Shown here piece by piece: positions 4,602-63,300 of a DNA stretch of 64,000 bases. The DNA is from Spinacia oleracea (taxonomy: Eukaryota; Streptophyta; Magnoliopsida; Caryophyllales; Amaranthaceae): NCBI RefSeq assembly GCF_020520425.1, contig NC_079492.1:138450361-138514360 (forward strand), in the 5' to 3' direction. The translations under genes were made by a program, and so were the position numbers. The notes below the pieces were generated by a model. The model saw only the letters and a program-made list of their open reading frames with translations, had not been told where the DNA came from and did not search any database. How positions within the stretch are numbered: position 1 is the stretch's first letter; every line of letters starts with the position of its first letter.

Positions 4602-5857
4602 CGGTTTTTTCATGAAATACCCTTGAGGTTTAACGAAATGCATCAAATACACCCGCGTGTTTCAAATTACATATTATACCCCTATTTAAACTTATTGTGC
4701 ACCAAATACCCTTCTTACTAACGGAAGTCTAACGCCGTTAGTCATTAGTGCTAATTTACCTATTTATCTTAATTATTAACAATTAACTTCCAAATAAACC
4801 TGATTAATACATAACAAACCTAAAGATTTAGCAACCACAAAAAAGCTCACTCAAAATTCAATCAAACTTCTCGAAAATCTGGGTTCGAAATTTGCCCAAT
4901 TTAAATCAAACTTGTGATAAAATTAATCGAGCAATAATGCTTCTACTTCACTCAATTATCTCATCAATTAGCTCCACAATTCGTGCTAAAATCCCCAATT
5001 TGATTTGCCAAACCCTAAATTCAGAATTGATTTCTTTATGTTTTGATCCGATTAATGTAACTTCTGGGTTCGAAAATCAGGGAAGGGGAGAGGAAAAGAG
5101 GAAAATTCTGGGTTCGAAAATATGAATTTAATCGAGAGCTTCGTTGCTTCTTCAATGGAGTTGGGTTTCTGAAAACGATTTTTAAGCTTCGTTGCTTCTT
5201 CAATGGAGTTGGGGTTGCATGAATTTAATCGAAAATTTGGGAGTTTGAGTTGCGAATTGAAGAGGAGAGAGAAGAGGATGAGAGGAGAGCAAGGATGGGG
5301 GAATGGAGAGGATAGAGTAATTCTCGTTATTGGGGCAGTCGTTGGTGGTTTTGGTGGTGGATGTGGGACTTCATTCGGACTTGGGAAAGAGAGAAGGAGT
5401 TGTAGTGGTGGAGGCGGTGTGCGCTTTGAGGTTGGAGGCCGGCGGTGCGGGAATTTGATGATGGAGGTGGTGCTGTGCACTTTGACGGTGGAGCCGGTGC
5501 GGATTTTTGTGATGGAGGTGGTGCAGCTTCAATGGTGGTGTGTCTGTGGGCTTGGTGGTGGATAGAGCTATCAGAGTGGTTGTGCGGCCGCCTCTCCTGG
5601 GAAATAAGAGAGGATCAGAGGATAGAGCTATCAGCTTCAATGTCATTCTAATTTCCATAAATAATCATGTTCGATTAGGTTTAATTAGGGGGTTAAATAA
5701 GTTAATTAGCACTAATGACTAACGTCGTTAGACTTCCGTTAGTAAGAAGGGTATTTGGTGCACAATAAGTTTAAATAGGGGTATAATATGTAATTTGAAA
5801 CACGCAGGTGTATTTGGTGCATTTCGTTAAACCTTAGGGGCATTTCATGAAAAACCG
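4602..5857. mobile_element. Mutator-like element with captured GC-rich sequence
   Basis: The 1256-bp element has long terminal inverted repeats of about 165 bp (4602-4765 against 5697-5857, only a handful of mismatches seen) starting CGGTTTTT. It is flanked by perfect 9-bp direct repeats AAAAATTTA at 4593-4601 and 5858-5866, the target length typical of Mutator elements. The interior has no transposase. It is G/C- and purine-rich at 5230-5640, unlike its surroundings, and holds a short internal direct duplication (near 5138-5166 and 5186-5214). An open minus-strand frame (5052-5480) is proline/serine/threonine-rich and unrecognised. This is the layout of a non-autonomous, Pack-MULE-like element. 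Confidence 0.82.
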
Positions 5858-11807: not shown

Positions 11808-13035
11808 TTTTTTTTTTTTTTTTTTTTTGTAAAGGAAAGGTACACAAAAGTTAGGATAGTCTTCTCTCAAAACTATATCCTAACTTATCTAAGGTAAGAA
11901 AATAAGAAAATATATTGTCTACAAAATGATCAATATCTAATTGACTATTAATGTGATGACCAATGGTTGCTACGTAATCAGCTGTGCGGTTAGCTTCTCG
12001 ATACACATGTCTCGAATTATGGGTATCGAAATTAAAGAGCAGATGTTTTATGTCATCCATAAGCAGCTGTATTTTCCATGGACACAGAGCTCTTTGTTGC
12101 AAAATCTGAATTATAAGTAAATTATCTCCCTCAATGAGAATATGTCGAATATTGTTTTCTATTGCCAGTAGTAATCCATTGCGAAGTGCAATAGCTTCTG
12201 CAAGAAAAGGGGGAGTAGCCCCCAGATTGAAAGACCGACTAGCAATATTGTTTCCAAGATGGTCTCTAATTACAACACCTGCTGCACCTGAGTTATGGCG
12301 AACAGAGCCGTCAAAGTTAAGTTTGAATGTTCCTGGGGCAGGTGGCGTCCAAGAAACTTGGATACAACGATAAGAACTTTTAGGAGCATTGTTTATTGAG
12401 CGTGAATCGAAAGAGTCGAAACAAGTGCGAGTTTTCCATTCGTTAAAAATCTTAAAAGCTCTAGTATAGAGTCCTATAGCTGAGAATGAGGCGTTTTTAA
12501 AAATAACTGCATTTCGCATTTTCCAAATGCTCCAGAAAGAAGTAATTATTTTCGTAATTAGGAGACTGACATTATTGCGTATATTTCGGAAAAAAGAAAA
12601 AATAGAAGTTTCTTGAATGTGCGTACCTAGCCAACGGATTGTTGTAGCGGAATCCCAAAATTCTTTAGTAGAAAGGCAACGGAGAAAGAGGTGATCTTGA
12701 GTTTCATTTTGAGAGCCGCAGAAAGGGCAACTAATAGGAATGTCAATACTTCTATATACTAGGTTATCTCTTGTAGGTAGACCATTGTGCAAAAGTTGCC
12801 ATAAAAAAGTTTTTAACTTAGGGGAAATATCTAGCTTCCAAATCCAGTGGTATTCCCATTTAACATGAGGAATAACATTATGAGCTAACCAAGTGGCCGA
12901 TTTAACTGTAAAGTTTCCGTTACTAGAAAGACCCCAACATGGTTGATCTAATAAGTTCGTGACAGGTAATGGAATACCTTTGATGACTTGAACTACTGAA
13001 GGAGGAACCACTAAAGCAAGAGCATGTTCATGGAA
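11808..13035 (-). mobile_element. 5'-truncated L1-type LINE with RNase H domain
   Basis: Direct repeats TGCTATTTTAA at 11797-11807 and 13036-13046 flank the insert. A long T-run at about 11808-11829 is the poly(A) tail of a minus-strand copy. Only the 3' part of ORF2 and the 3'UTR are present. 5' truncation, a poly(A) tail and a target duplication together indicate target-primed reverse transcription. Confidence 0.92.
11851..13011 (-). CDS. LINE ORF2 C-terminal part: zinc-binding RT domain plus RNase H
   Basis: An uninterrupted 386-residue frame. Residues about 25-125 match the reverse-transcriptase zinc-binding region (WKLDISPKLKTFLWQLLHNGLPTRDNL, then a CPFCG...H...C pattern). Residues about 225-350 are an RNase H domain with all expected acidic residues in place: NFDGS, FLAEAIALRNG, IEGDN and REANRTADYVA. 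Plant L1 elements with this extra RNase H use it for RNA removal during retrotransposition. The N-terminal endonuclease and polymerase domains are missing, so the copy is dead on its own. The intact frame suggests recent insertion. Confidence 0.9.
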   Translation of the reverse strand: MVPPSVVQVIKGIPLPVTNLLDQPCWGLSSNGNFTVKSATWLAHNVIPHVKWEYHWIWKLDISPKLKTFLWQLLHNGLPTRDNLVYRSIDIPISCPFCGSQNETQDHLFLRCLSTKEFWDSATTIRWLGTHIQETSIFSFFRNIRNNVSLLITKIITSFWSIWKMRNAVIFKNASFSAIGLYTRAFKIFNEWKTRTCFDSFDSRSINNAPKSSYRCIQVSWTPPAPGTFKLNFDGSVRHNSGAAGVVIRDHLGNNIASRSFNLGATPPFLAEAIALRNGLLLAIENNIRHILIEGDNLLIIQILQQRALCPWKIQLLMDDIKHLLFNFDTHNSRHVYREANRTADYVATIGHHINSQLDIDHFVDNIFSYFLTLDKLGYSFERRLS

Positions 13036-13540
13036 TGCTATTTTAAATTTTTAAGTAGTGGTCTGGGTGTCATGATCAAAATTTTGATTCTACCGTTTGT
13101 TGGTGTCGGGTTAACTGTTACAGAGTGTGTTGTTTTTAGTAGTAGTGTAGTTGCGACGAACAAATTTTCATTGCAAAACCACGAATTTTTAAAGGGAAGT
13201 AAAACCACGTTGTTCTGATTATACCTTTTGTTGGCGTCGGATTAACTGCTACGGAGTTTGTTGTTTTAAAAAGTGGTGTGGTCTTCATGATCAAATTTTC
13301 ATTATAAAACCACGTTTTAATCCTACCATTTGTTGCGGGTTCACTGCTACGGAGGGTGTTGTTTTTAGTAGCTAGTGGTGTAGTCGTGACGAACAAATTT
13401 TCATTGCAAAACTACGTCGACCATTTGTTGCTATAGGAGTAATTGCTACAGAGTGTGTTGTTTTTAGAAGTGGTGTAGTCGTGATGAGATAATTTTCATT
13501 GCAAAACCATGTTGTTTTACTTCTATCATTTATTGGTGTC

Positions 13541-17800: not shown

Positions 17801-20699
17801 CTAAGGGTATGTAACGTAAATCTCCTAGCTTAGAAATGAATATAGTCATTTGAACCTTTGAATACAGATGAACACAAGTTTTACATACCAAATTCTTCTA
17901 GGGATTTCTGTGAGAAATCTGGAAGAGGAGGACCCCCTTGTCGAAAGCACATTGTAGGCAGTCGATATGTTCCCCTCTTGGTTGTGGATTTTGGATCCTG
18001 TAAATGATGATCAAACATCTTAATACATGCGTGTAACATAGTCGAGGCAACTAAAAAATTTGAGGTTAATATGTGTATCAGTGTGTATGTAGAGTTGACA
18101 GAATATTACATTAAATATATAAGGTAATTCGAGCTTACTACTTCGATATCTGTGGACAAGGAAATGGTCACAGAAGAGAACCTTGGTGGCAGCTCCACTA
18201 TAAAAAAACAAAACTAACAAGTCAGAATCACTAAATAAAACTGTACTGTGTCCCTCATATAAGCCCTTTTTTTTTGACGGGTCCCTCAGATAAGCCTTAT
18301 CGTTCTATTCTACCAGGGGCGGATCTTTGTTGTGGCTGGGGTAGGCCTGGCCCCCGGCCGAAAAATTTTGTAGTATATTTTTAGTTACGCCCCCCTAAAA
18401 TTTGTGTATAATTGTACAATTATATAGTATATTGCTTAATTTGTTCTACCGGCCTCCCTCCTAAAACCATTCAAGGTCCGCCACTGTATTCTAATACGTC
18501 GACAATAGTTTTAATCACTAGGCTGAGACCTCATTAATCCTAGTCTGCTACAATGTACTACTATGTAAGTATGTATATGTACAACCAACCATATGAGGGC
18601 TGCAAAACTTATAACCGTTATCTTTGGTGCAATGTCAAATATCATATTCGTGAATACTAGGCAAAGACCTCATTAGTGCCTACTCTGACTACTGCTGTAA
18701 TATGGAGAGACAACCATCCTAGGGCTGCAAAACGTATAAATTATAAGTTAGGATTTTTTGCTAAAAAGGACCTTTTATAAGCATTTCTTTGCGAGAAAGG
18801 ACCTTTTATGTCAAAATTGGTGAGATGGGACCAAAAACACAACTTTTTTTGTCAAGTGGGACCTTTTGCCGGATTCTTGTAGTCAACTCTCTTTTCTGGC
18901 ATTGACTTCGACACGTGGCAACCGGTAACCGCCACGTGTCAAACTATTTAAAAAAAAAAAATTAAAATTTAATTTTTTTACCATTTATTTTCCCTCCAAA
19001 ACAACTGAATTTTTTTGCCTTCCTTCTGCCTTCTTCCTCATCTTCTCGTACTTCACCTTCATCTTCTCATGCTCCTCATTCAACCTCTTCATTTCATGTT
19101 CCATGAATTCAGCTCTTCCCTTAATTATTTTCATCTCCATTGCAAGCCTCTGCTTTTCTGAAAGAAGATGATTAGTGACGTCTTTTTGCCACTCAAGAAT
19201 GTCTTCATCAACCCAATCAAATGCATCACATCCCCTTTGCCCAGTTTCGAAGTTGTAGAATCTGCAACCTTTAAATTTCCTCCCCGGATTCTCATGTGTC
19301 CACGATGTTCTTTGAACAACGGGATACCCACAACCACATATTTTCGCTTTTTGATGGGACATTGTCAATCTAAAACACAAATACACAACAAATTACAAAA
19401 TCCCCAATTTTCGTAAGAACCCTAATTTTTTCGACCTAAAATTACAACAATTGAAGAAGATTTTGAGGGGGGAAAATAGCATACCTGAATCGTGTAGGCC
19501 TGAGTAACAATTCGTGGCAATCAATTTGAGATATCAAACACTTTCCTTCAACCTTGAATCTTCACCAACAATGGCGTTTGAAGGAGCAGAGGAGAGAGAA
19601 GAGAACGCGATTTTATTTTATTTTGTCAAAAAATTTCAGTTTTTTTGGAGGGAAAATAAATGGTAAAAAAATTAAATTTTAATTTTTTTTTTTTTAAAAA
19701 TAGTTTGACACGTGGCGGTTACCGGTTGCCACGTGTCGAAGTCAATGCCAGAAAAGAGAGTTGACTCCAAGAATCCGGCAAAAGGTCCCACTTGACAAAA
19801 AAAGTTGTGTTTTTGGTCCCATCTCACCAATTTTGACATAAAAGGTCATTTCTCGCAAAGAAATGCTTATAAAAGGTCCTTTTTAGCAAAAAATCCTATA
19901 AGTTATAACCGTTATTTTTGGTGTAATGCCAAATATCATAATCGTGACACGCTAAAAATGAATCTCATGGCGGAATAAAACGGTGTAGTTTTGGGTTTAT
20001 TGGCTCGCAGAATTAGCATTTGGCTATTATAAATTTGGAAATTATCTACCCGTCAATATCATTCATGTTCATTGTTTACGTGGTCTGCAAATCACAAGGA
20101 TCATATGAGTTGCTACAAATAGAGCATTGGACGTTAACTAAATCATTACATTCACACTACAAATCCATACATTTTTAATTTTCAAAGCGGTGCTTAAAAC
20201 TTCTCAAGAACAAGAGTCATAATACATTAAATAACGCGTAAAAACATGTGCATAAACAAATCATGACTACTAAAGTTGGTAAAACCCTTTGATTAATCAT
20301 CAATTTTGTTAAACACTTAAATGCTAATCATATTAGACTCTTAATACTAGTGAGTCTTTTTTTTATACTGGTATTTCTCGTAAAACTGTTCAAGATCCGT
20401 CACTAATTAAATATTAACTATATTGGACTCTTAACACTAGTGATTCTTCCTCCTTAATTCCACTAGCATAAGAAAATGAACTATGATAATTAAGAATTTT
20501 AAGATTAACAAATTGTAATAACTCAACATAATTAGAAAAAAGCAAGTCCCTAACCTCTTAGGTAAGACCAATCATATGGTTTGAGAATAGTTGAAGGATA
20601 ACTCTTACTCCAAATCGTGTAAAGATCGCTAGTTCTACCATTAACATTGCAAGCTAATGCTAACAAAGATAAACACAACATCGCGTAAACCCGGGCCAT
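14880..20699 (-). CDS. TMEM8/PGAP6-like EGF-domain seven-transmembrane protein
   Basis: Thirteen coding exons join in frame to about 776 aa: 20699-20555, 18197-18139, 17997-17889, 17758-17652, 17578-17510, 17427-16861, 16687-16191, 16094-16030, 15931-15852, 15760-15656, 15573-15434, 15356-15114 and 15024-14880. The start at 20699 gives a clean signal peptide (MARVYAMLCLSLLALACNVNG). A large luminal/extracellular part with many N-x-S/T sites follows. An EGF-like unit is split over two exons (CPDDCSGYGKC ... CRCDEFHGGFDC, about residues 500-535). The last 240 residues hold about seven hydrophobic helices with histidines typical of the CREST/DUF3522 family (AIYHACD and HSSWH). Animal PGAP6/TMEM8A acts on GPI-anchored proteins as a phospholipase A2; a similar role in plants is inference. 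Intron 1 (2.36 kb) carries two transposable elements, and a short foldback element sits in the intron after the 17427-16861 exon. Confidence 0.88.
16764..16836. mobile_element. Short foldback MITE in an intron of the TMEM8-like gene
   Basis: About 75 bp with inverted ends (GGCAGTTCTTTT against GGCCCTGTTCTTTTGAGC) and an interior of repeated TTCAG words. Flanks are TTA on the left and TAA on the right. It belongs to the same broad type as the element at 6742-6963. It lies between the exons at 16687 and 16861, so it is spliced out. Confidence 0.45.
18314..18486. mobile_element. hAT-type MITE in intron 1 of the TMEM8-like gene
   Basis: The ends CAGGGGCGGATCTT and (reversed) CAGTGGCGGACCTT form short terminal inverted repeats. 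8-bp flanks TATTCTAC (18306-18313) and TATTCTAA (18487-18494) match in seven positions. The size (173 bp), ends and 8-bp target are typical of non-autonomous hAT elements. Confidence 0.75.
18520..18750. repeat. Diverged 125-bp tandem duplication, second copy split by the Mutator-like element
   Basis: AGGGCTGCAAAAC occurs at 18596 and 18721, and the blocks before each (GACCTCATTA..., ACAACCA...) are also related. The sequence ATAACCGTTAT..., which follows the first copy at about 18610, reappears right after the transposon at about 19903. The 18751-19896 element therefore landed inside the second unit. Confidence 0.65.
18985..19362 (-). CDS. GRF-type zinc-finger protein with C-terminal coiled coil (transposon cargo)
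   Basis: A 125-residue protein with its start at 19362 (MSHQKAK). Residues about 9-50 form a GRF zinc finger: CGCGYPVVQRTSWTHENPGRKF, then KGCRFYNF, then GCDAFDWVDED, with the conserved Cys, G-R-F and W positions. Residues about 60-118 are highly charged Lys/Glu-rich helix, probably a coiled coil. GRF fingers bind single-stranded or structured nucleic acid in several eukaryotic DNA-processing proteins; here only the finger and coiled coil are present and no enzyme domain. The last codons and the stop lie inside the left terminal inverted repeat. A 5'UTR intron is likely (19484-19370). Related small GRF ORFs are widespread in plants; their function is unknown. Confidence 0.85.
   Translation of the reverse strand: MSHQKAKICGCGYPVVQRTSWTHENPGRKFKGCRFYNFETGQRGCDAFDWVDEDILEWQKDVTNHLLSEKQRLAMEMKIIKGRAEFMEHEMKRLNEEHEKMKVKYEKMRKKAEGRQKNSVVLEGK
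19363..19620 (-). promoter_or_regulatory. Leader and 5'UTR intron of the GRF gene
   Basis: On the minus strand a leader reads into GATTCAG followed by GTATGC (donor at 19484) and re-enters at TTTTAG/ATTGACAATG (acceptor near 19370), eight bases before the ATG. A CT-rich stretch at about 19590-19610 may mark the start of transcription. The upstream promoter would then fall inside the right inverted repeat. Confidence 0.5.
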
Positions 20700-27171: not shown

Positions 27172-30100
27172 TCAGCTCTGGAGAAAATGCTCGAGTGCTT
27201 CAAAGAAGAGAGGTGCCATTTCAGGGCTTGGTGTCTTGATTGCACATTTGACTCCGGGAACTCCAACTGCCGCAGTCAGTTCAATCAAAAATGGAATTCC
27301 TCTAGGAATCTTGGCTGAGAGATACAACACCTCTTGGTTTGCATTTTTCCTTTTTGCTATGAAGAACATGTTTGAGGCTGCCAATTTGTCAAGAGTTGAT
27401 TCCATGCTTTTAATTACAAGTCCAGGGAATTCTCTCAATACCTCATTTGAATCAGGAAGAGATTTCCACGTCTGTCGAGTAAACAAAGATAGCAATTAAT
27501 CCACAATTTCCAACAAAATAATCCTACAATTCAACTCACTTCACAGAAAAGAATAAAGCAGTTGAGAGAACTCCAAATAATAACCCAATCACTTAAAAGT
27601 TATAGGGTTGTATGAGCTTTTATTGATGAACGGTGAACAAAGGAAGTTATAGGTGCTAATTTGGACACTTTTTCCTTCATAAAAACAATTGAAAATTACA
27701 GATATCAATTACAAAGAAACTATTTTTGCTTTTTATATTATCTCAGTTACTTTCTAATCAATTCTGAAAAGTTTGATTATGAATTTATAAATTGTATTCG
27801 TTTTAGTACAGATGGCCAAAGCTACTAACCAAAACTGGTCAAATGAGCCATGGATGCTTGAGACCTAGGAAAATTTCTTTTCCTTTGAGAACAAGCAATT
27901 TTTAATTTGAATTTTATTTATATACTTTCGCCATGATATATATTGCATTAATGAGGTCAAGAGTTCAATCACAAAAATCATAGTTCTTTTTCCTGTTTAT
28001 GTTATCCAGAAGCACACAGAGAGAAACAAGTACTTCGTTGCGCAAACATGCCCGAGTTCCAGTAGCTTAGTCATCATACAAAACAAGGATACAGACATCG
28101 ATATCAAGCAACATAAGAACAAAAACATTGTTGGGTGTTTTCCTCGACCAATCAGAGATTCAAATACATTACCTCCAAAAAGGTTGCACGTTCCATTCTG
28201 CCATCTTCAGTGAAGAGAACATGCAATGAAATCTTATCACTGAAGTACCAAACTGGTTGCTGGTTGTTCTTTACAGCCACCTGGAGGAGAGTGTTTGGAG
28301 CACCAGGAGCAACATTTTGAAATAAAACCATGGGGAGAAGAGTCCTTGCTGATGTCCCAGGATGCAATGGTGGAACCTGGCACACCAAAAAAAAGTGTGC
28401 AAAAATTGTAAAAGAACATAAAAGATTAATTTCTCCAGGAAAGACTTCCAACAAGCAATGTGTACCTGCAAAGGTCCAGTAGCTGCAAGCCCAAATGTAT
28501 TTTTATTGAACTGGATCATGAACCCATCAAGGACTGACTGTGTATTGTTCTCAAACAGCATGCTGTAGAATACTTGTCCATCACTCCGTGTAAGTTCTGC
28601 ACTGATTTGTAAACCTTGACCTTTGGCGGCAGGCAACAACACTGGCAAAGGAGGACTGCACAGGAATAGATGAATAAGAATAATTTTGCAAGCGACAGTT
28701 CAGACAAAGCAGGTCAAGAGTAGATCAAGGGATTGAGAAGTCGAAATACATAATTTCATTTAGCGCCATCAGAAAAATCTTTAAAATTCTAACTACTCCA
28801 AAAATAACAAGGATGGTGCTTCGATGTCTGGCAATTTCAAGAAGCATGATTTTTAGACAATTCAGTACAAGCCAAGGTGACAGTTAAAGCGTCAATAACG
28901 CCATTTTAGCTAAAAAGAGGAAGGCCTCAGTTCTTTTCATTCAATTCTAAATGAAATTTTGTTTGCTAGTTTTTTTGGGTGTGTTTCTAGGTCTTTTGTC
29001 TGGAGGGAGGGTAAAAAGGTTGCCCATGAGTCATCCATTCTGTTCCATTCCTAACACTTTCTTCACAACATTGAAGAAGTAGGTAGGCGCAGTTGGTTTG
29101 ATAGTTTTATTAGTTGTGCCGGCTTCTTTGTACTCTGTTTTGCAAGTCATGAATGAATACATATCCCTTTTAGGGTTCTTTTAAAAAATTAAACTGCAAA
29201 AAGTAGGTGGGTATTGACTTTAAAATGAGTAATATTCAAGAAGAAGGTATGACCGTATGAGTCATATCACTCACCCAGCTGGTGCAGGCTGGTCAACTGG
29301 GACAAGAGAATTTGAATTGTCCAGGCCTATCAGATCACCAAGTAAATCAGGAACAGGAGCTGGGGCTGCTGCAACTGGTGGTGAAGTTGCTGGATGCCTG
29401 GATCCCGAGCTTGATGAAGGTGATGCAGCACCATCAACAGGATGTGCAGGGGATTCAGGATATCCAGATTCACTTCCCTCAGGATAGTCATCTTCCTCGG
29501 CTCTCTGGGATACTGTTTTAAGACGAGTTACAAATGATTCTGGTGGTTTGTGATACACAGATGATAGAGTTGCAATGTTTGCAAGAAGTTCATCAAGAAG
29601 AGAAGAATCAAGCTGGTTTGAATCATCAGTGATGACAGGTTTTTCTGCTAATACAACATCTTTAGCTGCCTGCAACAAGGAGTAGGTCAATTTAATAGTG
29701 TCATCAGAACTCAAAACAACACTCTTAAAGGAAATTTAATAGTGTAAATGACAACATATATTATCCAAGTCAGAGAATCAGAAACACACAGAATTGAAAC
29801 TAAACAAGAATCTTTAGTGTCATCAGAATTCAGAACTAAAACAACACACTAAGTAAGTTTGTCTATGTTAATAATAACAATTTCAACATAACATATACCA
29901 CTGGCAGCATGCCAGCTCCAAAAGCCCTTTTGCGAACTCCATAAGCAAAAGATTAGATTATGTCTATCTCAGTTTAGATGATTTTTCTTTTTCTTGCTTT
30001 CAACCAAAGCGATTTCCCAGGCATTATCAAAATGGTGATGGATTGTACTGGTGATTCACTACCTCTTGATAACAGAACAAAAAATTATACTCAACATACG

Positions 30101-33100
30101 TAAATTATACTAACCTCGGGATCGGTTGAAAGAAGACGCCAATATATGTAAGCACGATCACGCAAATCGGGATTGTCGGTCTCAACAGTAGCATTATTCA
30201 AAACAGCCTGTGAGAAGTTAAACATCCAGGGGTAAAATAGCAGCAACAGTAAAAGTCACAACAAAATGGACATTATGGTTAGCTTTTTTCTCGCCTCAGT
30301 TAAAAAGTCACAATCCTTTCAAATATAATTTGTCATTTTGTCCCACTCAACTTTGATAATGCATGAATTCTTGGAAAACAATACCTTCATTTTCTAACAA
30401 AGTAACAATAGCGACCTTTACCACATACTATGTATTTACCAATTTGAACACAGGGCAATAGAGACTAGAGAGTGGATAATTATCGGATTTATACAGTTCT
30501 TATTAGGTTCTTATCAAAATTCATTAGATCCTCCTGTAAGATGAAGATGCAACATGGAAACCTATGTAGACCATCAATTTGCAAAGCCAAATCCCTCTAT
30601 ATGCCTGAGCATTTCATCCTCCCTCCAGTCTTTTCGCAACATTGATCACTGTTACATAAATATGTAAATATTTTATACCTGATTTATGCACGTATATAAG
30701 CGTTGTAGTCATAGTAATTCTCCTGTAACCCTAATTAGTAATTCTCTAGTAATCACCATTAGTACACACACACACATCACCTTTCAACTTCAATATTATT
30801 TTGACTACCACTCTACTAGGATGGACATGTTTTGAATGGGATTGCAATAATCAAAACTAAAAGTTACCCTACGCCTCTGATTACTTATTGAATAGGCCTA
30901 ATCAGTTGGCAACAAACATCCCAATATTCGCTCAGCAATTTCAGGAAAAGATTGTGTATTCTCAACCTCAACAAAAGGTAGATACCTGAATCATCTGCTG
31001 TGGTCCTTCTGTTGGCTTCTTCAGGAAAAGCTTGACAGTTGCTGTTAGTAATTGCAACTGCACTTGTGGAGGCTCTTCAGGGAAACTTTCCAAGAAGCTC
31101 TCAAGCAACTCATCTGCATTGTCAATTCTTTCCGCATATTCACCAATGATCCAAATCATTGAAGCCTGGAAGATATAATCGATAAATAAGCCTCAATCAC
31201 AACAAAGATAAAGAAACTCAGAGTCAGAGATTTATACCTTGGCCTCTGGTTCATCTAAAGTGTCTAAGCTCTCACAGAGGGTTGCAATGATGGACTCGTA
31301 ACTGGAAGAATCATGACAAACCTTAGGGAAAAAAGTTGAAGAAAGCCATATCATAACATCAAGAACTCAAAGTCCACCAACTTACGTGTTAGGGTATCTT
31401 CTAAATATATCTTTAATGACAATAATTGCCTCCTGAACTACATAGTTTACTTTAATCTTGATCAGCTCCAGCAAGACACTGATGCAGCGTTCAGCAGCTC
31501 TCTCTAACTTTATGGCACATCGGCCAATTGCACGAACAGCCTTCCTAACGAAATCTACATCTACTTCTGTGGCATACTCTTTAAACTCCAGTAAGACCTG
31601 GAAACACCATCATCAAGTTAAGTGCAAAAACAATAAATTCCAGAATTATTAGGTATCAGCAGATAATAAATAAATCACCTGATCAATATTCCTGTCTGAA
31701 GCAAGCTTGATCATAATTTCTAACTTCTCCATCTTGACATATATAGGATCATTGTACTTGCAGAAAAACACCTTATAACAAAATATGCATGTAAGACAAT
31801 GGTAATGGACTGCTATTGAGTGTGCAATGGAGTGTATATTATTTAACAAAAAGAGCAATTACAAAAATGATGGCCTAAAAACTCTCCAATACCTTGATTT
31901 CATGCGCCAGAATAGTTGGCCTCTTTTGTACAATCAGATTGATATTTCTTAGGGCAACATACTGTATTTCAGGCTCTGCAGACAAAAGGGTTACAAGTGG
32001 AGGGGCCATTTTCTTACAAAGATTCCGAACAATATCAGTACTAGTAATGAGTTCCATCTGCTGAAGAATCATCTGCAGAAATCCACAAAACCAATTGTTA
32101 AGGATACAACACATACATCTAGCAATGACTATTAATCTACCAGAAAAAGGTGGGAAGGGTCACCTTCACCGCTGAAAGCACAACAGCGCAATTTGCATGT
32201 TGTAGACGTGGAGTAACTCTCTCTACAATGTTTTCAGCTTCTCGAGCATCAGCTGCTTTGTATCTTGACAAGGCATCCAATATAAAAACTTGACCCCACC
32301 TGGAAGCCAGTGAAAATTGTATGAATGCATCAGCATTGGTAAAAGACAAGGTCCTAACAGCTGGACAAATGTGTTCGTCTCCCTTACACCTCTCCCTTCG
32401 CCCACTCCATAGCTAGATAAACTTTGCATTTGTCCCGAGTGTCATAGTTTTACTTTTTCCCCTGTCTACCATTTACACCAAAATGGATTTTGGGGGTAAA
32501 TAGAACCATCAATTAACTAGGCAGTTTCAATTTGTCTGGATCTAAAACAAACATGGTTTTGGCCTAACACATCAGATGCAAATAAGTTATGGAACCAAAG
32601 TCAAGACGGCAATGACCAGGAAAAAAATCTAGTAGAAGTTCTCCCTCAAAATTCACCCATGTGACCTCTATACACTTGTTTATAAAAATGAACCACAAGC
32701 CAACAATCCCCTTACCTTAAAGGAAGGAGAAAAGCCAACAGTTAGTGCATGGCAAGGGCGCTAAGAAACATATAGATCCAAATCAAAAACTCACTCCAAA
32801 AGCATCAAAACACCCTCCATCTCAGAAAAGAGACGATGTGGGTAATTTGTGACAGAATATGCAAATGACCAATAGGTCATTAAATTATAACAGGAGTTTT
32901 TCTACTGGAGTCTGTAATTGTCTAAATGGTACAGAGTTAATTACTACCAAGTCCAGGGTACTTCCATTGGCCAGTAAACAAAAGAGGCCAAGAGAACAAA
33001 TGAAATGCCAAAAAGTCATTCCCTGGGACAGAAAGCAATAATCCATTTACAAATTAGACCCCAGTGAAGCAGAAATCATTCCCTCCAAAGTCTGTATGGT

Positions 33101-37524: not shown

Positions 37525-37950
37525 CTATTTGCCAATTACAATCCAGTAAAGTTTCTATTTGTCAATTACAACCTTAAATTTCTATTTTTGTCAATTGCAA
37601 CCTTAAATTTATACGTCCGTTTTAAATTACCATCCTGAATTATTTTCCGGCAAAAATCACCGGAAGATGATGTCATAATGTTATTAAAAAAAATAGTTAC
37701 ATACTTTCTATAAAAAAAATAGATAAATAAGAATTAAAAAAAATATATCGATTTTTTTTTTTTTGTATTTCATAATTTTTTTAATAACGTTATGGCATCA
37801 TTTTCTGGTGATTTTTACCGGAAAATGATTTCGGGTTGTAATTTAAAATAAATGTACAAGTTTAAGGTTGTAATCGGCAAAATTAGAAATTTGAGGTTGT
37901 AATTGACAAATAGAGAACTTTATTAGGTTGTATTTGGCAAATTTACCTAA
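37525..37950. mobile_element. Foldback element upstream of the beta-adaptin gene
   Basis: Two arms of about 170 bp are inverted copies (left arm: TTTGTCAATTACAACC, TTTTCCGGCAAAAATCACCGG; right arm: the reverse complement of the same words, with mismatches). An AT-rich loop lies around 37690-37780. Probably a non-autonomous Mutator-type MITE, but a target duplication could not be fixed. Confidence 0.6.
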
Positions 37951-59537: not shown

Positions 59538-60200
59538 CTAAACACCCACATGAAGCTCACAAACACACCCTACCAAAGTAGCAACTATGAGTTCTTTTAT
59601 TGTGGAAGGAGAACCAAACACAATCAACTTTTAGCCCTTTTTTTTAACAGATTCTTCACACGAGTGGATGAATTTGCAATGACTCCTAGCTAGGCTTACT
59701 ACCATTTGACTGCTTTCCTTTCCTCTTGAGAACATCTTTGTGTTATTTAGGGGTTATTTTTTGTTTTAAAAATTGCACTAAGATTAAATTAGCAAAAATG
59801 CTCCATTCAAAGGTAGAAAGGCATTGATTGATCTATCTACTAATAGCCATAAAGAAATTCTCTAAGGCAAAGGCAACTTTGACGGCTATACTTTTTATAT
59901 TCTCACTGTTACTTTTTGGTAATTATAAGTCTTAATTGATACTGGTTTCATACTTTCACCTATATACCCGATATATATTTTTTGTGTCTGAGACTGAGCT
60001 AGATATATTTACGTAGTTACGTAAATGTATTAGTCAACATCCTATGAGATATTTTGACACATGTAAGGCTTTGTATTTATCAATCTCTCATACGATATTG
60101 ACTACAGTATAGAATTATACGAAGTATTCCCTTTACAAGACATGTAGGTGAAAGATGATGAAGAGGCCAATATCTGATATGTATTTCAAGATACATTATC
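59538..60200. other. AT-rich intergenic DNA
   Basis: No gene or repeat boundary identified. ORFs are short and unrecognised. Confidence 0.5.
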
Positions 60201-60202
60201 AC

Positions 60203-60361
60203 CCCACTAAACGATAAAATAGAGATAAGACAAAAATTAAAGCAGGTGACATTTTTCAAAGAACATATGCCATTTTAGAAAAATGGATGTCATTTTTCAA
60301 AAATCGATGTCATTTTCCTTTAGCGTTTGTCTTATCTCTATTTTGCCGTTTAATGAGTGGT
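60203..60361. mobile_element. Foldback MITE of about 160 bp
   Basis: Arms of about 40 bp are inverted copies: left CCACTAAACGATAAAATAG with AGATAAGACAAA, right the complement with a few changes. The centre has three GATGTCATTTTTC-like repeats. A target duplication was not established. Confidence 0.65.
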
Positions 60362-63300
60362 ATGTATTTGTGAAATCATATCAGATATTAATTTATACTT
60401 CCTCAGATGAACAACGGTTCTCTTTAACGATTGTCGAAATTGAACACCCTTAAACATTAAAGTAACAAAACACATTTTTTTTTGACGGCGAGTAACAAAA
60501 CAAATTAAACAAGTATATTAAGCCGTTTTAGCAGTAAAGCATGACTTAATTAAGGCAAGTCATAATAACAGACACAATGAGGGTGATGCATTATATATTT
60601 ATATCGAGTATATTCCAAATGTTGACCTTTTTATGCTCCAGTCAACCAAGGAGCCCATCATGAATTCATGACCATGTTAACAAAGCCCAAAAAGGTTGGG
60701 AGTGGAATTAGTTACAAGGCCCACCATTGTTTTTCGTCTCTAAAAATATGGTATAAAGGTGTGCTAGATTCACTGCAATGAATCAATGGTACATTATTTC
60801 CACCAAGAGATGTTTTGTTTAGCAATGGAACTTTTGACCATCATATATCAGCAATGATATTGCCTGGTTTACACTAATGGAGGTTTCTAGTGTCAACCAA
60901 TGCATTAAGTGAGAAAAACATTGATTAATTAATTAACTAATTTACACGTACATGTGGTCGTTTAATAGACATTGTACGTAAAAACAATGACTAGTAATTA
61001 AACGAAATACTTATCTCAACCGAGTCGTGACGTGAATAAACAATACCTACCCAGCTACCCTAATGTTGAATCTTCGCTGATATATACACACGGCCTCACA
61101 ACAATCAACCTTGCTGGTGTAGCAAAGAGATAAATTACAATTGAAAAATTTCCAATAATTATGAAGTTCAATGTAAAAAGATGTTTGTCTATCTTGTTCT
61201 TTTGAAGCAGAACGTACCACTTGGAGTGAAACAAACTCCAACAAATATTACGTTACGTTGATATGTGTTTATCGTTATCCATGGAGCTAGTACAATATAA
61301 AAACACCGGAATTTTATTACTATGTATACCAATATAACCTGTATGAGCGCTTTCGTGAGTTGTATACTTGTGTTAGTGTATAGGTCTCATCTATCTTATG
61401 TCGATTTAATTTATACTCCGTAACAAAAGTAGGCAAAAACAATTCACCGATTTTTTCCTAATGCCAAAGTTAAGTGGTTGCATAATTAAATGGTTTTTCT
61501 TCAACATTATTCCTTCTAGCTACTGCCTAGGCGTCCGACTTGTAAAAAGTTCCCATCATCAATTTTGAACTCAGGATTCTTTTGTCTTTTTTTCTTTTTC
61601 TATCATGATCAACCAATAAGGATTCGTTGATGTCGGGAAAATAATTAAACTTGGAAAAAAAAATGTGTAATGATGGTCCACTAATACAAACTTCGTGCAC
61701 ATTTTAAATACTAGTCTTATATGCACGCGATACGTGCGAAATTATTTGAAAAACTTAAAATTGTATTATTACAACTAATCACAACAAATATTAGGCACAA
61801 AAATATTCACAAGTTCATATTTAAAAACATGAAGGTCATGCTATAGGTCAATTTTGCAATCTAAGTTCATATTTAACTAATCACAACTATTGCATCAATC
61901 AAAAAAAAATCTATGTATGTAAATAATAATCAAAGTAATAAACATTTAATTAATCAGTTTTTTAAAATAATAAGTAATCAGATTTACATTAATACGTAAT
62001 TGTGAAGAGCTGAGGGTATTTTCGTCTTTTAGTTGGTGGACACCAAAAGTGTGATTACGAAAATAACCCTCCCCTCTTGGCTTATATAATAGAGATTAAT
62101 CCTAGCAAAATGATTGGAAGGAGAGTCCCTTGTGAAATCTTCAAGGACAAATATTCATTTTTGTATCTAGAGTATATATTAAAAAAAATATCTATATGTC
62201 TTGCTTTTGTTTTATGTAAATTTGTAAAGTACACGTACTCATTTAAAAGCTCGGCAAATGTCGTGTCAACAAAATTTAAACCGCGACCTCATGTTTTGAC
62301 ATTAAAATTTTCACCAATAAATTACGTTATATTATATGTTTTTCTTTCAGAAAATAAATGAAAATGATTTGACCATGATTTTTGTGTTTAAATTATAAAT
62401 ATTTTCGGGGAATCGTCGGATCAAAAAAGAGTTTAATTGTCATGCTATGAAAATGGTATTAAATTTTGTGCCTTTGAGAAAAAAAAACTTACGGATATCG
62501 CCTTTAGATCTCTAGCTGTGTTTTGATAGGATGGTGAAGCCACGTCAATACTAATTCCACCATTAAGAATGTGGTCAAAGTAAAGCGCCCTTGAAATCAT
62601 TTTCTTAGTTGAGGTACTTTTTACTTAATTTAATTTGAGTTTGGTAAGGAAAAATTCGAATGTAGGTTAGAATTAGGTTTCCCACATTAAAGAAGAGGTG
62701 GAAGGAGAATAATTAACATATAAGTCTAATGAGTTAACTTTGTTGAGCTTCAAAGCTTGTATTTTCGACGTGGACGTACTTGTGTTTAACCGTTGAATTT
62801 TAGAAAGAGGTACTTCCAACATATGTGAACTTTTAGTGTTCAATTTTTTTTTCGATCTAAAACCAGATAAATAAAACGAGAGCTAATTAAATTTGAATTA
62901 TTAAGAGTATAATCCATATGTGAGTATTAGTTATCCCATATTGAAGAAATAAAGAGAGATTGACTACAATATAAGATTGGTGGGTTACTCCGATCCCATA
63001 TCACCAATTGACTTTAGGGTGAAACTCTATCAGACTTATGTTTGGGCAAACTCTCCATCGACATGAGCTTAACTTGGCCCGGTGGGTTTTATCATGAACG
63101 TTCCATATTTCTGATATTTCAGTGCATGAATCTTCTCATTAATTAAACTCTTTAGTCTTTACGATAATCAAGTTAATAAACCTAGCTAATGTGTTCATGA
63201 CTTCACAATACAAAATGGAAAGAAGCTAAGTGGAGAAGATTCGGTCTTGAAAATTCATCAGCTTTGCTTTTAAAGAAGATGCTTTGGTCAAAACTAAGCT

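Follow-up and report, generated by a model that had tools for sequence, protein, structure and literature searches.

Does a short transposon in an intron of a spinach gene carry cargo captured from its host, or a gene that belongs to the transposon itself? The question is raised by a non-autonomous Mutator-like element (MULE) in a 64,000-nucleotide stretch of Spinacia oleracea DNA (NC_079492.1, positions 138,450,361 to 138,514,360; hereafter the window), which contains an open reading frame (ORF) for a GRF-type zinc finger followed by a coiled coil. A first-pass annotation of this DNA described the element as a young Mutator-like transposon that had captured a complete host gene. Our analysis indicates that the element is very probably young and derived by internal deletion from a two-gene MuDR-type MULE, in which the GRF gene is the second gene of the family. 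This assessment covers structure and origin, and not a helper role of the GRF protein in transposition.

The origin of the ORF was apparent from the full-length relatives of the element. The window element was 99.2% identical to a 6.4-kb relative, L038, over 878 bp, from the promoter-side terminal inverted repeat (TIR) to codon 114/115 of the GRF gene. The 6.4-kb copies share the ends of the window element and contain both a MuDR-type transposase gene and a convergent, full-length GRF gene, the latter encoding 146 residues that comprise the finger, a coiled coil and a C-terminal hydrophobic (membrane-like) stretch; the GRF gene of one copy, L040, contains one stop. In the window copy, the GRF frame enters the opposite TIR and stops after 11 foreign residues. 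Thus, the 125-codon ORF is open from its ATG, as had been noted, but it is truncated at its C terminus and hence does not represent a complete gene. The interior of the element is 99% identical to the GRF gene of L038, rather than host-derived as in a Pack-MULE. To judge from this comparison, the window gene is the element's own second gene, cut by an internal deletion, and not host cargo.

The gene facing GRF in another 6.4-kb copy, L039, was found to encode the domains DBD_Tnp_Mut (E 1e-12), MULE (E 3e-8) and SWIM (E 4e-7), each above the Pfam cut-off, in three open exons separated by GT..AG introns. The transposase genes of L038 and L041 carry lesions (a frame change; a 0.7-kb deletion). 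Since the exons of L039 are open and its domains score above cut-off, one or more full-length copies look able to supply transposase. The family combines 9-bp target site duplications (TSDs), long TIRs and, in L039, a MURA-type transposase with a second gene that begins near the other TIR and converges on the transposase gene.

The association of GRF and transposase genes was then quantified across the spinach genome. Searches with the full-length GRF protein gave at least 150 matches (from the best 150 of 395 candidates scored), and searches with two transposase exons gave at least 127 (from the best 126 of 1252) and at least 128 (from the best 127 of 863). A transposase match was found within 8 kb of 90 of these 150 GRF matches, compared with 0.41 under random placement (maximum 4 in 500 trials), and in all 90 pairs the transposase lay downstream on the opposite strand. 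Conversely, 90 of 153 transposase loci were accompanied by a listed GRF match, as were 67 of the 98 loci with at least two matches. The identities of the GRF and transposase partners to the query family rose and fell together (rho 0.85 for 81 pairs, 0.90 for 57 distinct pairs and 0.78 for 75 pairs with the other exon), the points being related copies and so not independent. GRF matches free of stops were more frequent among paired than unpaired loci (81/90 vs 36/60, p 3e-5; stop-bearing matches tallied by hand from the GRF match list), a difference that age may confound.

A search with the Pfam GRF model yielded at least 148 matches (from the best 150 of 485 candidates scored), of which 53 tie at 30.9 bits, lie outside the protein-search lists and have open frames mostly of 144-155 aa. 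This tied-score set includes C1:95021950 and C4:151669014, and many of its members were observed 2.4 kb from a convergent DBD_Tnp_Mut match, the latter in frames of up to 919 aa. When the DBD_Tnp_Mut model was used (best 150 of 655 candidates), 55 of the 118 GRF matches outside the first list had a transposase no more than 5 kb away; the spacing was mostly 2.4 kb, and 54 of the 55 pairs were convergent. We take this further set to be a second MULE group, judged from scores alone. Across the combined lists, 147 of 268 GRF loci lay near a MULE transposase match, 146 of the 147 in convergent orientation, with 1.3 expected by chance (maximum 7 in 300 trials). As a control, the best 150 matches to the MULE domain were examined, none of which fell within 3 kb of the transposase lists. 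A GRF match was present within 8 kb of 2/150 and within 15 kb of 5/150 of these control loci. Because only 2 of the 150 control matches lay near GRF, the pairing is not general to MULEs.

In two diverged families, whose GRF proteins are 52% and about 42% identical to that of the query family, the TIRs measure 217 and 165 bp and are about 99% identical. A 9-bp TSD was found in four of four copies; one of these TSDs, TAAAAAAAA, is of low complexity and therefore weak. Within this one genome, the second gene is recognizable down to 32% identity. Among seven family genes inspected by eye, a leader intron was evident from a donor and an acceptor at a like place in five, and from an acceptor only in two short stretches.

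Fifty GRF loci were read, yielding 36 ORFs of at least 100 aa, one shorter ORF and 13 loci with none by motif, some of these reflecting a short stretch or the strict motif; 22 sequences were aligned, and 19 entered the dN/dS set. An excess of synonymous changes was found in five close family pairs (Fisher p 2.6e-6, 4.3e-5, 1.5e-8, 1.3e-3 and 6.6e-4, with L081 contributing to two of the pairs) as well as in three distant pairs (p 1e-18 to 2e-5). In the close pairs, the lowest ratio was seen in the finger in three of five and in the coil in two of five, and the membrane tail alone reached significance in two of five. Across 23 pairs, dN/dS was 0.10-0.47 for the 15 with dS of at least 0.19 and 0.39-1.58 for the 8 with smaller dS. 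These data show that the GRF gene is under purifying selection between families. Given its position, orientation, co-divergence with transposase, purifying selection and like leader intron, the GRF gene has long been resident as the second gene of this MULE group, occupying the position of mudrB or ORFR in other MULEs, and is not a recent capture.

For the window protein, the best Pfam match was the GRF finger at 17.8 bits, below the cut-off of 25.9; the same model matched 21 of 22 relatives at E <= 0.01 and scored above cut-off in two of eight relatives tested singly, and the 42%-identical family reached 33.4 bits in the genome search. Residues C9, C11, C33, C45, W21, G27, F48, W50 and W58 were invariant in all 22 relatives (32-97% identity), and R28 and F30 were retained in at least 90% of them, so that the four zinc ligands and the G-R-x-F and F-x-W motifs are present. 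A membrane-like segment was found in 28 of the 36 ORFs of at least 100 aa. The eight that lack it are the four window-class copies, L066 (which has the L034 deletion described below) and three that are cut or frameshifted.

An AlphaFold2 model of the GRF protein placed strands at 14-20, 28-33 and 48-50 and a long helix at 57-145 (mean pLDDT 79.7, pTM 0.36). Foldseek returned no match to this model at E <= 0.001. Its leading matches, all weak, were the GRF fingers of NEIL3 at ranks 1, 2 and 4 (E 0.11-0.57) and of APEX2 at rank 5 (E 0.61), with the zinc ribbon of RNA polymerase II at rank 3 (E 0.44). The two best rows from VIA were helix matches to unrelated proteins, and a sequence search of the PDB gave chiefly coiled coils, with NEIL3 at E 0.6. 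In NEIL3 and APEX2, GRF fingers are domains of repair enzymes, and GRF fingers bind DNA, often single-stranded. The spinach protein shares with these fingers the four cysteine ligands and the G-R-K-F and F-x-W motifs, but it is small and stands alone, with a coil and a C-terminal membrane segment. A DNA-binding fold of the GRF finger is described in PMC9369019.

As the first-pass annotation had anticipated, copies with the same ends occur elsewhere. Searching the genome with the TIR gave at least 42 matches (from the best 40 of 616 candidates scored), and a 38-bp end pattern with up to two mismatches occurred at 40 genome sites, compared with none for the reversed control. Eighteen elements were read: six of about 1.15 kb (including the window copy), two of 0.57 kb, six of 6.4 kb (among them L041, of 5.6 kb), two of 12.5 kb and two of 1.44 kb. 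A perfect 9-bp TSD was found in 16 of the 18, at the expected ends in 12 and in 4 once one end had been moved by a few bases. The two without a TSD are L042, which reaches an N stretch, and L044/L045, where none was found. The two 12.5-kb relatives (L044+L045 and L046+L047) have about 6 kb of additional internal sequence. The 1.44-kb elements, L048 and L049, show about 84% identity at the GRF-side end and match the first 563 bases of that side only; end matches suggest additional copies of this class.

A 23-mer spanning the deletion junction of the window element occurred at exactly four genome places (control, 0), and the truncated ORF was intact in all four copies of this deletion class, a point in favor of the first-pass annotation. 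L034 and L035 represent other deletions of a like kind, L036 and L037 are reduced to TIRs only, and the transposase side alone was kept in none of the 18 elements read. The L034 breakpoint lies at the 4-bp word GAAG within purine-rich sequence, which is why a selective explanation for breakpoints that all precede the membrane tail was considered but not retained. On the deletion-junction side, none of the four window-class copies has a 9-bp word that L034, L035 and L038 carry where their transposase side ends, and this side is accordingly nearer to the GRF-side TIR. A repair-type copying event would be compatible with this likeness.

The age of the insertion was estimated from substitutions private to the window copy. 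Compared with its three sister copies, the 1146-bp window element carries three substitutions of its own, at positions 255, 425 and 1017 (about 0.26%), differences within one homopolymer being left out. Substitution rates of 0.7-1.3e-8 per site per year would place the insertion at about 0.2-0.4 million years. The first-pass annotation had argued for recent movement from the few differences between the TIRs. Recent movement is borne out, but the TIRs are the weaker clock: the mismatch at position 49 is common to the window copy and L032 and is therefore most simply older than the insertion, and the private substitutions serve better.

The organization of the spinach family resembles that of two described systems. 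In maize MuDR, too, long TIRs drive the transcription of two genes that converge (PMC3310237); the system also has 9-bp TSDs, and its non-autonomous members rely on the full element (PMC2725143). Unlike in maize, the second protein in spinach consists of a GRF finger, a coiled coil and a membrane segment, and it is likened to MURB by position and orientation only; mudrB was reported as seemingly restricted to Zea (PMC2725143). In the grass Abermu elements, a transposase gene is accompanied by an oppositely transcribed ORFR near the other TIR (PMC9168764). ORFR evolves faster, with Ka/Ks under 1, and its origin and function are given as unknown (PMC9168764). In the available sections of that source, ORFR is described as showing similarity neither to MURB nor between distant plants, and no GRF domain is named (PMC9168764). 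The spinach second gene, unlike ORFR, is recognizable down to the low identities given above; its slot and orientation are those of ORFR. More generally, the origin and biochemical role of MULE second genes (mudrB, ORFR) have been described as open (PMC9168764, PMC6446971). Pack-MULEs are similar to the window element in being non-autonomous, free of transposase and provided with coding sequence, but the cargo in the window is the element's own gene and not host sequence. Literature searches that left out most subscription journals and some of the papers listed, and that made no use of a repeat library, brought up no description of a MULE with a GRF gene, which is not proof of absence.

In the favored model of a deletion derivative of a two-gene MULE, the full-length element would express a MURA-type transposase inward from one TIR and the GRF protein convergently from the other. 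A deletion extending from within the GRF gene to the opposite TIR would have kept both ends while leaving a truncated GRF ORF without its membrane tail. Because four copies of the derivative exist, the family transposase presumably moves it in trans. The full-length GRF protein may help transposition, its finger binding nucleic acid, perhaps single-stranded ends, its coil multimerizing the protein and its tail anchoring it to a membrane. Such a helper role is plausible, and we give it about even odds. MURB is required for new insertions in maize (PMC9168764). A rice Abermu lacking ORFR seems recently active (PMC9168764), which speaks against a need for ORFR, at least there. The window copy's truncated ORF most likely travels with the element as a passenger; a role in trans is a minority possibility.

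Three other explanations were weighed against this model. Recent capture of a complete host GRF gene by a Pack-MULE, as first proposed for this locus, would draw on the known ability of MULEs to capture host sequence (PMC6446971) and on the lack of a transposase frame in the window element. However, the nearest relatives of the ORF sit in 6.4-kb MULEs with the same TIRs, and the GRF-transposase pairs among the best 150 GRF matches are all in one orientation, which makes such a capture extremely improbable. This evidence bears on recent capture only, leaving aside an old host origin of the family, and the GRF lists were not purged of host genes. An effect of the element through RNA, in which the 267-bp TIR hairpin in the host intron would, like Mu killer (PMC3440606), give rise to small RNAs that target the family, is unlikely. 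The transcribed strand is predicted to fold at -578.8 kcal/mol with its TIRs paired, and the GRF gene, having lost its own 3' region, may give a transcript that reads through the opposite TIR; yet such folding is expected of any long-TIR element, and the energy stands without a shuffle control.

It is also conceivable, but quite improbable, that the GRF protein lacking its tail regulates the family in trans, either in soluble form or as a heteromer, its coil pairing with the full-length protein and pulling it off the membrane. A comparable logic applies to KP, a truncated product made by deleted P elements. In favor of such a regulator, all four window-class copies have an intact finger and coil, L034 retains an intact finger together with most of its coil, the leader intron and promoter-side TIR are retained, and the membrane tail has been lost in both deletion classes. 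The changes are too few to measure selection, however: the four window-class copies differ by three changes in the ORF, all in L031, two of them altering amino acids. Further, L035 retains the region yet has a broken finger frame, and the break of L034 at GAAG in purine-rich sequence needs no selection.

The convergent second gene of MULEs matters in maize, and in spinach the role of such a gene becomes directly testable, since its product has a recognizable domain for nucleic-acid binding and a fixed architecture, and the gene has long been inherited together with the transposase. The results also suggest that a GRF-type zinc-finger annotation in plants may often mark a transposon gene. Among the domains enriched in Asteraceae, the GRF type is listed alongside SWIM-type and transposon domains (PMC10359422). 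A broader proposal, possible but doubtful as a whole, is that proteins with GRF finger, coiled coil and membrane segment are an ancient, vertically co-inherited MULE second gene and the counterpart of mudrB and ORFR; that many plant GRF-type annotations are transposon genes; that these proteins would anchor either the transposition complex or the DNA of the transposon at a membrane, for example the nuclear envelope; and that deletion derivatives keeping only finger and coil, like the one in the window, would yield soluble forms that regulate the family in trans. Taken alone, the element in the window is a deletion derivative of an ordinary kind.

At the insertion site, most of the anatomy first described for the element was confirmed (Table 1). 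The 9-bp target duplications form a perfect pair, TATAAGTTA, of a length usual for MULEs (8-11 bp, mostly 9), and the near-identical inverted repeats, put at about 265 bp, are 267 and 270 bp long with 97.4% identity across 270 alignment columns. No transposase frame was found in the ORF list of the element, and the GRF gene has its own GT..AG leader intron, in a place matching that in the genes of its relatives. On these points the description is supported: the element is young, non-autonomous and Mutator-like, lies in a host intron and carries an ORF for a GRF finger and coiled coil. Both TIRs also contain an inverted pair of CACGTG motifs, which are G-box-like; candidate roles for these pairs are promoter drive of the GRF gene or a protein-binding site.

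Table 1. Positions of the element, its parts and its surroundings within the window
Feature	Position	Strand	Details
Whole non-autonomous MULE	18751..19896	- (strand read by GRF gene)	1146 bp; TIRs, TSD, copies elsewhere
TSD, left copy, TATAAGTTA	18742..18750	.	Same letters as 19897-19905
TSD, right copy	19897..19905	.	Matches left copy
TIR, deletion-junction side	18751..19017	+	97.4% to other TIR; without the 9-bp word of the L034, L035 and L038 transposase-side ends
TIR, GRF promoter side	19627..19896	-	99.2% to L038 over 878 bp including most of GRF gene
Inverted CACGTG pair, left TIR	18907..18943	.	Motifs 11 bp apart; repeat analysis
Inverted CACGTG pair, right TIR	19704..19740	.	Motifs 11 bp apart; repeat analysis
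Leader (5' UTR) intron of GRF gene	19370..19484	-	GT..AG, upstream of ATG; by eye; like intron in relatives
Truncated GRF ORF (finger + coiled coil)	18985..19362	-	125 codons + stop; final 11 residues unlike full-length protein
Internal-deletion junction	19018..19019	.	GRF codon 114/115 fused to opposite TIR; L038 alignment stops at base 878
Host intron 1 around element	18198..20553	-	Exon ends YDWSYLR / VELPPRFSSVTISLSTDIE, in frame, GT..AG
Neighboring repeat unit without element (empty-site analogue)	18606..18653	+	90% to 19900-19947

The element lies in intron 1 of the host gene, as had been proposed. In an exon model made by eye from sequence, without RNA, the host gene is on the strand of the GRF gene, with exon 1 ending at 20554, exon 2 beginning at 18197, GT..AG intron ends and a continuous frame. 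Host exon 1 begins with a signal-peptide-like stretch, and the gene may be TMEM8/PGAP6-like, an assignment for which Pfam gave no confirmation. A genome search found no further empty copy of the insertion site. When the element was removed, the joined flanks aligned to the neighboring repeat unit, which is also 14 bp short there.

A second probable non-autonomous element was observed elsewhere in the window, at 4602-5857, with inverted arms that are about 170 bp long and 94% identical. It is flanked by the 9-bp repeat AAAAATTTA, which consists of A+T only and is therefore weak, and no GRF ORF was found among its frames. The segments at 37527-37942 and 60169-60389 are near-palindromic and fold-back-like, matching their own opposite strand at 80% and 75%, and no 9-bp TSD was found when looked for at either. 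A 399-codon minus-strand frame at 11851-13050 resembles, by eye, the end of a LINE-type element that carries reverse transcriptase and RNase H. Finally, beta-adaptin-like host exons lie on the minus strand at 28271-32159, with Alpha_adaptinC2 above the Pfam cut-off and Adaptin_N just under it.

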